This document shows, piece after piece, positions 5,511 through 7,917 of a DNA stretch of 42,513 nucleotides. Below the pieces are notes generated by a model. That model did not search any database. It was not told the origin of the DNA and worked only from the letters and a program-made list of their open reading frames with translations. Origin of the DNA: Pseudomonadota bacterium (GTDB lineage Bacteria; Pseudomonadota; Gammaproteobacteria; Acidiferrobacterales; Acidiferrobacteraceae). The first letter of the stretch is position 1. Each line of letters starts with the position of its first letter. The position numbers were made by a program, and so were the translations under genes. The DNA lies in NCBI GenBank assembly GCA_021816425.1, contig JAKAXT010000007.1, positions 1 through 42,513 of the forward strand. The letters are read 5' to 3'.

Positions 5511-6215
5511 TTAACGGTTTACGGGCGATGCGCCAAGGTCGGCGCGCACAAGGGCTTGGGTGAGGAAGGCATGGAGGTCGCGGATCTCGGCGTCGCTCAC
5601 GCTATGGTCGATCGGGTAGGTATGAAGCTGGGCGGCGATGCCGTGCGTACCGAGCAGGGCGTGGGTCCTTTGGGCGAAGGGGTAGGGGATCATGGCGTCG
5701 TCCGTGCCGTGTCCGAGGAACACGGGCGTGGCATCGTTGATATGCGGCAGGCCCTCGGCGAAGCGATGGGCGAGCGGCAGGTAGGTCGAGAGCCCGATGG
5801 CCGCCGCCAGGCGCTTCGGGCCGGTCAGGGCCACGTACAGCGCCACCGCCCCACCCTGCGAGAAACCGCCCACGACCACGCGCTCCGGGGGTACGCCGTA
5901 TTCCCTTTGTTCCGCGACCAGCTGGGTGATGGCGTCGGCCGCGCGCTGGATGCCCGCTTCGTCCTGCGCGTCCTCGGGGCGGGTGCCGTAGAGATCGAAC
6001 CACGCCGGCATGCGCGCGCCGCCATTCAGGGTCACGGCCTGGACGGGGGCGTGCGGGAAGACGAAGCGCATGGCCTTGTCGGTGGTGTCGGCGAAGGACT
6101 CGACGAACCCCGCGAAATCGTAGCCATCGGCGCCGAGTCCGTGGAGCCAGATGAATGCGTAATGGGGGTGGGGGCCGGTGGCGTATTGAAGGGCGGGCTT
6201 TTCGAAAAAACTCAT
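5511..6215 (-). CDS. Alpha/beta-hydrolase carboxylesterase (phospholipase/carboxylesterase family)
   Basis: A 234-aa serine esterase of the carboxylesterase 2 / lysophospholipase family, acting on short-chain esters or lysophospholipids. Features are the oxyanion-hole strand FIWLHGLGADGYDF, the nucleophile Ser119 in GGFSQGG, the acid Asp172 in GTDDAMIPY and the base His204 in IDHSVSD. The open frame continues upstream as Arg/Pro-rich sequence unlike the family, so I start at the ATG of MSFFEKPALQ. No ribosome site precedes it. Instead a perfect TATAAT sits 6 bases upstream, so the message may begin at the ATG itself. It lies 30 bases upstream of aguA on the same strand. Substrate unknown. Confidence 0.9.
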   Translation of the reverse strand: MSFFEKPALQYATGPHPHYAFIWLHGLGADGYDFAGFVESFADTTDKAMRFVFPHAPVQAVTLNGGARMPAWFDLYGTRPEDAQDEAGIQRAADAITQLVAEQREYGVPPERVVVGGFSQGGAVALYVALTGPKRLAAAIGLSTYLPLAHRFAEGLPHINDATPVFLGHGTDDAMIPYPFAQRTHALLGTHGIAAQLHTYPIDHSVSDAEIRDLHAFLTQALVRADLGASPVNR

Positions 6216-6221
6216 GGCGGT

Positions 6222-6351: not shown

Positions 6352-6567
6352 TCATGGCGGGTCCGACGTATCGCGCGGTGGGGCGCGGCGCACGATCAGG
6401 GAGCGGGTCGCGGCGATGGCCAGACGTGCCGTGCCGCGCGCGCTCTCCACGAGGAGGATCTCGAGGGGTCCGTGGGCGAAGAGGTCGGCGGCCCGCGTTT
6501 CGGGATCGGCGGCAGGGTCCAGATCGATCACGATCCGTTCGCCGCGTTTTCGCGTTATTATGAGCAT
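6352..6567 (-). CDS. CsrA-like RNA-binding protein with an insertion after strand 1
   Basis: A 71-residue protein that keeps the CsrA (carbon storage regulator) framework. It opens with MLIITRKRGERIVI, matching strand 1 and its RNA-contacting Leu-Thr-Arg-Arg region. LEILLVES then matches strand 2, TARLAIAAT strand 3, and SLIVRRAPP strand 4 with the arginine that contacts GGA motifs. About 15 extra residues (roughly 15-30, DLDPAADPETRAADLF) separate strands 1 and 2, where ordinary CsrA has a tight turn, and the usual C-terminal helix is replaced by a short Pro/Asp tail. Ordinary CsrA is about 61-65 aa. A role as a post-transcriptional regulator is inferred from the family. I chose the ATG that gives the canonical N-terminus; a TTG 17 codons upstream is possible. 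Confidence 0.7.
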   Translation of the reverse strand: MLIITRKRGERIVIDLDPAADPETRAADLFAHGPLEILLVESARGTARLAIAATRSLIVRRAPPRDTSDPP

Positions 6568-6572
6568 GCGTG

Positions 6573-6601
6573 TTTGTAGCGCCAAAGAGCGCGGCCGTCG
6601 A
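6573..6601 (-). promoter_or_regulatory. Candidate promoter of the CsrA-like gene; start predicted at the ATG
   Basis: Minus strand TACAAA (6578-6573), 17-base spacer, TCGACG (6601-6596). The predicted start falls at or next to the ATG (6567), and there is no ribosome site between. Same arrangement as the esterase gene downstream. Confidence 0.4.
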
Positions 6602-6702
6602 TAGCCGATCGGCGACAAAGGTACAGGTCGGTGCTGGCCGCGCCCGTTTACTTGCGCCAGGAAATGGGTTTGAATGGCGCCCTTCTCGCTTCAGGGGTCC
6701 AC

Positions 6703-7917
6703 ATGAGTCTCATACGTCCTTTCCGCGGTCTGCGGCCCGACGCCGCGCACGCCGCCGCCGTCATCGCGCCGCCCTACGATGTCCTGAGCAGCGCCGAGGC
6801 TCGCGAGGCCGTGATCGGCCGCCCCTTGAGCTTTTTGCGGGTCTCCAAGGCCGAGGTCGACCTGCCCGAGGGCACGGCACCCACGGACGAGGCGGTGTTC
6901 CGCCAGGCGGCGGAGAACTTTGCGCGCCTGCGGCGCGAGATCCTGAGGCAAGACGCCAAGCCCTGTTACTACTGTTACGAGCTCACCATGGGCGGCCATG
7001 TCCAGAAGGGGCTCGTGGCCGTGGCCTCGGTGGACGCCTATGCGCAGGGGCGCATCCGCCGTCATGAGTTGACGCGCCCCGACAAGGAGCGCGATCGGGT
7101 GCGCCATATCGAGGCCTTGAACGCCCAGACGGGCCCGGCGTTTCTCACCTTCCGGGCCGATGCCGAGATTGCGGCCTTGCTCGGGCGGGCCTCGGAGGGC
7201 CCGGCTTCCATCGATGCGGTCTTGCAGGGTGTCCGTCACCGCCTGTGGGTGATCGCAGACGAGGGGCTCGTGGGCGCGCTCACGGCGGCCTTCGACAGGC
7301 TGCCGCGGATCTATATCGCTGACGGACACCACCGCAGCGCCGCGGCCAAGGTGGTGGCCGGGAGTCGTGGCGAAGGCGAGGGGCCGCACCAGTGGTTCCT
7401 CTCGGTGCTGTTCCCGGATAACGAGATGCAGATCCTGAACTACGACCGGGTGGTCGCCGACCTGAACGGTCTGAGTGTCGAAGGCCTGAAAGAGGCCCTG
7501 ACGGCGATCTTCGAGGTGATCCCCGAGGGCGGCCCGGTGCGGCCGGCGGGTGCGGCCGAGTTCGGGATGTATGTGGAGGGGCGCTGGTATCGGCTGCGGT
7601 TGCGCGGCGCCTTGCCCAAGGACCCGGTGGCGCGCCTGGACGTGAGCCTCCTGCAGGACCGGGTGCTGGCGCCGCTTTTCGGGATCACAGACCCGAGGCG
7701 GGATCAGCGCATCGACTTCGTGGGGGGCATCCGGGGACCGGCGGCCCTGGCCGGACGCGTGGACCGCGCCGGAGGCGTGGCGTTTACGCTCCATCCGACG
7801 AGCCTCGCGGACCTCATGGCGGTCGCCGACCAGGGCGAGGTCATGCCGCCGAAGTCCACCTGGTTCGAGCCCAAGCTCGCCGACGGGCTCGTCTCCTACA
7901 GTCTGGACTCCGATTAG
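6703..7917 (+). CDS. DUF1015 family protein
   Basis: A 404-aa soluble protein of the widespread but uncharacterised DUF1015 family. It begins with the family signature PFRGLRP followed by APPYDVLSS, has PLSFLRVSKAE, and carries the strongly conserved IADGHHRSAAA, whose Asp-His-His look like metal or phosphate ligands. The length is normal. I start at the ATG with AGGGG about 7 bases upstream; the open frame extends 24 codons further without family resemblance. It is divergent from the CsrA-like gene and convergent with the DUF3579 gene, and their stop codons overlap. I cannot assign a reaction. Confidence 0.9.
   Translation: MSLIRPFRGLRPDAAHAAAVIAPPYDVLSSAEAREAVIGRPLSFLRVSKAEVDLPEGTAPTDEAVFRQAAENFARLRREILRQDAKPCYYCYELTMGGHVQKGLVAVASVDAYAQGRIRRHELTRPDKERDRVRHIEALNAQTGPAFLTFRADAEIAALLGRASEGPASIDAVLQGVRHRLWVIADEGLVGALTAAFDRLPRIYIADGHHRSAAAKVVAGSRGEGEGPHQWFLSVLFPDNEMQILNYDRVVADLNGLSVEGLKEALTAIFEVIPEGGPVRPAGAAEFGMYVEGRWYRLRLRGALPKDPVARLDVSLLQDRVLAPLFGITDPRRDQRIDFVGGIRGPAALAGRVDRAGGVAFTLHPTSLADLMAVADQGEVMPPKSTWFEPKLADGLVSYSLDSD

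Follow-up and report, generated by a model that had tools for sequence, protein, structure and literature searches.

The window analysed here, the whole stretch of 42,513 nucleotides from a bacterium of the Acidiferrobacteraceae, carries a short csrA-like gene on the reverse strand. The gene, its neighbours and the element upstream of it are as follows:

5511..6218, reverse strand: Abhydrolase_2 esterase, downstream neighbour
6352..6567, reverse strand: csrA gene of probable RsmN/RsmF type, 71 aa, ATG at 6567, stop at 6352-6354
6568..6611, reverse strand: upstream element GCTATCGAC-(16 nt)-GCTACA(A), conserved in the genus
6703..7917, forward strand: DUF1015 protein, divergent neighbour, likewise adjacent in related genera of this family

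The gene encodes MLIITRKRGERIVIDLDPAADPETRAADLFAHGPLEILLVESARGTARLAIAATRSLIVRRAPPRDTSDPP. An in-frame N-terminal extension to a TTG at 6618 was rejected, because it is not kept in relatives and several of them have stops there. The 71-aa gene was found in 14 of the 14 genomes of the genus searched, the focal one included, and the other 13 copies show about 50-86% identity. Differences among the orthologues were distributed over codon positions 1, 2 and 3 as 509, 274 and 951, and dN/dS against eight orthologues was 0.09-0.44 over 61 codons. The ORF is therefore a real gene under purifying selection. The DNA is GC-rich and the other strand is also open at 6352-6567, as might be the case for a spurious ORF or a decaying gene, but conservation across the genus genomes searched, dN/dS values below 0.5 and the in-frame excess of third-position changes make this explanation practically negligible. 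The opposite-strand open frames are most simply side effects of the high GC content.

The preliminary description had read a CsrA-like ORF on this stretch, and a Pfam search agrees with it. CsrA (PF02599) was the sole family matched by the 71-aa protein (E = 1.4e-5), although the score of 25.3 bits is just below the curated cut-off of 27. The NCBIfam csrA models covered only residues 1 to 15-17 and stayed far under their cut-offs, and the equivalog for canonical CsrA, TIGR00202, gave 17.4 bits against a cut-off of 70.1. Standard CsrA models can thus under-call insert-type proteins. In a single-sequence search of the PDB, the top two matches were RsmF (4k59) and RsmN (4kji), with E values of 0.12 and 0.15 that are weak when taken alone; the alignment covers residues 2-61, is interrupted only once, by a gap of one residue within the insert, and has 17 identical columns out of 60. 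An alignment of 28 insert-type proteins from this order and one outside genome, to which no Pseudomonas RsmN was added (A1), gave a profile that matched P. aeruginosa RsmN in one end-to-end stretch with 43.5 bits. With canonical CsrA the same profile gave a match in two flanking pieces only.

The elements of the protein that are discussed below lie at the following positions:

6547..6564, reverse strand: strand 1, residues 2-7, LIITRK (DSSP on the AlphaFold model)
6520..6537, reverse strand: strand 2, residues 11-16, RIVIDL (model), aligning with canonical CsrA strand 2
6475..6525, reverse strand: 17-residue insert, residues 15-31, between strands 2 and 3 (alignment and model)
6385..6387, reverse strand: R61, equivalent to RsmN R62 and CsrA R44, the essential RNA-binding arginine, invariant in A1 and A2

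The insert consists of 17 columns that are missing from all 20 canonical CsrAs aligned, and it begins after strand 2, where GERIVI of the focal protein corresponds to GETLNI. The preliminary description had counted four CsrA strands and placed the insertion between strands 1 and 2. CsrA has five strands, strand 2 at residues 11-16 had been missed, and both the alignment and the model put the insert behind it, after ERIVI. The insert had also been contrasted with the helix of RsmN as lying elsewhere; its position is in fact collinear with the RsmN insert, and sequence and structure searches both rank RsmN/RsmF first. That relatives keep the insertion was borne out by the alignment of orthologues and relatives, in which an LF..GP signature (L29, F30, G33, P34) that spans the end of the insert is conserved. 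Pooled pN/pS was 0.36 for the insert and 0.35 for the rest of the gene, so the two parts are equally constrained.

The AlphaFold model of the 71-aa protein has a pLDDT of 90.7, a pTM of 0.71 and the order E-E-H-E-E-E. Strands were predicted at residues 2-7, 11-16, 36-43, 46-52 and 57-62, with a short helix in the insert at residues 26-29. No C-terminal helix follows strand 5, as had been noted from the sequence. Foldseek returned four confident PDB matches for this model, all of them RsmN/RsmF (4k59, 4kji, 4krw), with a probability of 1.00 and a TM of about 0.7; the next match had a probability of 0.21. VIA Z was 8.0-8.7 for RsmN/RsmF, and the entry ranked next reached 3.2. The RsmN structures may have been known to AlphaFold from its training. 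As a control, the canonical CsrA of the same genome was modelled with the same program, from 20 aligned rows as against 40 for the 71-aa protein. The control had a pLDDT of 69.5, lacked strands 1 and 5 in the monomer and retained the C-terminal helix, and above noise Foldseek matched it to canonical CsrA chains only. Such a contrast is expected if the sheets of canonical CsrA are completed only by a partner chain, whereas those of the insert-type protein are complete without one. The 71-aa chain is thus predicted to close on itself as RsmN does, without exposing swapped strands, and the insert should change the dimer, as the preliminary description held. The protein might instead swap strands like an ordinary CsrA, with the insert forming no more than a floppy loop, since the model shows only the short helix at residues 26-29 within it. 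We consider this very unlikely, because the confident closed monomer matches only RsmN/RsmF while the canonical control behaves in the opposite way, the C-terminal helix is absent, and the insert is conserved in sequence and constrained like the rest of the gene.

In most members of the genus, the GCTATCGAC...GCTACAA block ends about 5 nt before the ATG, and the exact pattern GCTATCGAC-N16-GCTACAA occurs as a single copy in the genome. The block is possibly a promoter for a leaderless or short-leader mRNA. A consensus promoter scan did not pick the GCTATCGAC/GCTACAA hexamer pair and chose another pair nearby. No Rfam families were found in the window.

Outside the focal genus, 17 of the 19 genomes of the order with an insert-type CsrA have a short XRE gene (HTH_3) immediately upstream of it on the same strand. 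The two genomes that lack this partner, G022 and G035, both belong to family f6. In the ten pairs measured, the XRE stop is at most 11 bases ahead of the CsrA start and at most 7 bases past it. The pairs, and a fusion of the two domains, are:

XRE-csrA pairs: L017-L021, L023, L025-L027, L029, L030, L106, L110-L113 and G034:C56
CsrA-XRE fusion: L074 (G187), reverse strand, protein start at 1501 of the reverse complement

The fusion occurs in a member of the class outside the order and consists of one ORF of 150 aa, counted from the ATG, in which an insert-type CsrA is followed by an XRE domain (Pfam: CsrA, 9e-11; HTH_31, 4e-7). In the focal genus, no XRE gene was found at the csrA-like locus. 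The best matches to the XRE profile lie elsewhere in these genomes (E about 1e-16 to 1e-18), and the paired genes match the profile much more strongly (1e-33 to 1e-45). In sister genera of the same family the XRE gene sits between DUF1015 and the csrA-like gene, so the simplest reading is that it was lost in the focal genus. A literature search, with most subscription journals outside its range, returned nothing relevant on an XRE-CsrA pair or on CsrA in Acidiferrobacter.

The RNA contacts of RsmN have been listed (PMC3791407), and in the alignment R9, R49, R56 and R62 of RsmN correspond to K7, R48, R55 and R61 of the 71-aa protein. The preliminary description had matched the final-strand arginine, and R61 is indeed invariant in alignments A1 and A2. 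Three other RsmN residues, Q47, V61 and E64, are not kept and are replaced by T46, R60 and P63, so RNA affinity or specificity may differ. The Arg8-Glu64 salt bridge has no counterpart here, as R6 is present and P63 occupies the Glu64 position. This pair is conserved in RsmN and RsmA, and a need for it in the fold was not shown there (PMC3791407). Because canonical RsmA shares Glu64, its loss does not separate the RsmN type from canonical CsrA. Acidic residues are retained behind the arginine in some relatives, L015 and L017 among them. At the site of the RsmN Gly-Ile motif, the C-terminal end of the inserted helix, the focal protein has G33-P34-L35 and most relatives have GPI or GPL; the focal protein thus has the glycine and an aliphatic residue of the motif, but separated by a proline. 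The distant insert-type members L081, L082 and L086 are without the final RNA-binding arginine, and their function has perhaps changed.

A normal csrA, which the preliminary description had suggested looking for, is present in the same genome (G000:C124:4342-4500, E = 2e-25). The ORF upstream of it is presumably aspartokinase-like, a name that we take from its sequence and from the usual gammaproteobacterial arrangement. A search of the genome for CsrB-like antagonist RNA, made with one family, gave no match; it is a weak test because it also reports hits in unrelated genomes.

Taken together, our data indicate that the gene very probably encodes an RsmN/RsmF-type member of the CsrA family, the second CsrA of this genome, which is expected to act as a dimer that binds GGA-containing RNA beside canonical CsrA. 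The chain would run through strands 1 and 2, the inserted helix and strands 3-5, and end without a C-terminal helix. Because of the insert, each chain would form a closed unit of five strands, and the dimer would arise by docking of two of these units, without strand swapping. Its basic surface (K7, R48, R55 and R61) is expected to bind sites with GGA in small RNAs or in the leaders of mRNAs, and the dimer would thereby tune the translation of a subset of transcripts beside canonical CsrA. On this RsmN-type reading, the focal bacterium would have a second post-transcriptional regulator. Alternatively, a paralogue with the RsmN fold could have drifted away from GGA-RNA binding and act mainly by contacting proteins; the exposed helix face might, for instance, serve to pair it with canonical CsrA or some other partner. 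The replacement of Q47, V61 and E64, the disappearance from the focal genus of the XRE partner gene of its relatives and the distant members without the final arginine all fit such a drift. The focal protein, however, keeps the essential arginine, which does not vary in A1 or A2, and the other basic contacts, and its gene is under purifying selection, so we regard drift as unlikely and prefer the RNA-binding RsmN type.

Insert-type CsrAs were found in 33 of the 57 genomes of the same order. In an even sample of the class, the insert-type profile matched 31 of 369 genomes at E <= 1e-5; the resulting share of about 8% is an upper estimate, because a few of the weakest matches have no insert (L093) or carry one that is short or different (L092, L090). 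Among genomes sampled evenly across the phylum, six matched, including the focal one; all are from the same class, and the five besides the focal one fall in a single family group (f166). From these five, L087 and L119 (...LFNGGINVRIL...) were inspected and look RsmN-like. The focal protein had no tblastn match in plasmids or phages; two of its relatives had none in plasmids, and one of these had none in phages either. Several further arrangements were seen. L104 (G395:C24, forward strand, 1769-2188) has two tandem insert-type CsrA domains in a 222-residue open frame and is possibly a single-chain dimer. At L077 (G395:C10, 1501-1939), an insert-type csrA and, shortly behind it, a canonical csrA stand in tandem. 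L105 (G045:C67, reverse strand, 1602-2190) is a cluster of several canonical-type CsrA-like domains, and CsrA matches per genome reached 16 in G045 and 12 in G018.

RsmN-like proteins have been described within Pseudomonas, where a duplication of rsmA was proposed (Morris et al., PMC3791407), and the Pseudomonas survey of Sobrero and Valverde repeats this view (PMC7366521). Both treat RsmN as a protein of the Pseudomonas lineage, and the architecture is found here in many further gammaproteobacterial family groups, where in the focal order it accompanies canonical CsrA and mostly has an XRE gene next to it. This spread argues for an older or repeated origin. In a tree of 44 columns with the insert left out, neither the grouping of RsmN with the insert-type rows (AU p 0.38) nor its grouping with the canonical rows (p 0.30) was rejected. 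The RsmN type could be an older second branch of CsrA across the Gammaproteobacteria rather than a late Pseudomonas innovation; in one order it would have been joined to XRE in an operon as a transcriptional and translational switch, of which the focal genus keeps the RNA-binding half. We put this forward tentatively and give it not quite an even chance. The distinct CsrA subgroup suggested in the preliminary description has to be reworded accordingly: its architecture is that of RsmN and so not distinct, but the set of proteins is much broader than Pseudomonas. What is new is the breadth of the RsmN-type architecture and its association with XRE, the architecture itself being known from RsmN/RsmF. 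With this breadth and the XRE coupling, comparative data can address the purpose of the non-swapped dimer and of the helix face.

Among known and related systems, the csrAs paired with XRE in 17 genomes and the fusion L074 share the same insert-type CsrA domain and are directly related to the focal protein, but in the focal genus the csrA-like gene stands next to DUF1015 without the upstream XRE gene. Canonical CsrA/RsmA/RsmE proteins (PF02599, TIGR00202) belong to the same superfamily, with strands 1-5 alignable and the R44 arginine in common. Unlike the focal protein, they have no insert, carry a C-terminal helix and form a strand-swapped dimer. The closest system is RsmN/RsmF of P. aeruginosa (4kji, 4krw, 4k59). 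In RsmN, a helical insert of 16 residues separates strand 2 from strand 3, and the chain lacks a C-terminal helix (Morris 2013, PMC3791407). RsmN does not complement an E. coli K-12 csrA mutant for glycogen (PMC3791407). The focal protein differs from it in its host lineage, in an identity of only 28%, in the loss of Q47, V61 and E64 and in the LF..GP at the end of the insert, where G33-P34-L35 stands in place of Gly-Gly-Ile. It resembles RsmN/RsmF in its length of 71 aa, in an insert of about 16-17 residues with a helix at the same place, in the missing C-terminal helix, in the essential arginine and the set of basic contacts, in its co-existence with a canonical CsrA/RsmA and, by prediction, in its closed monomer.
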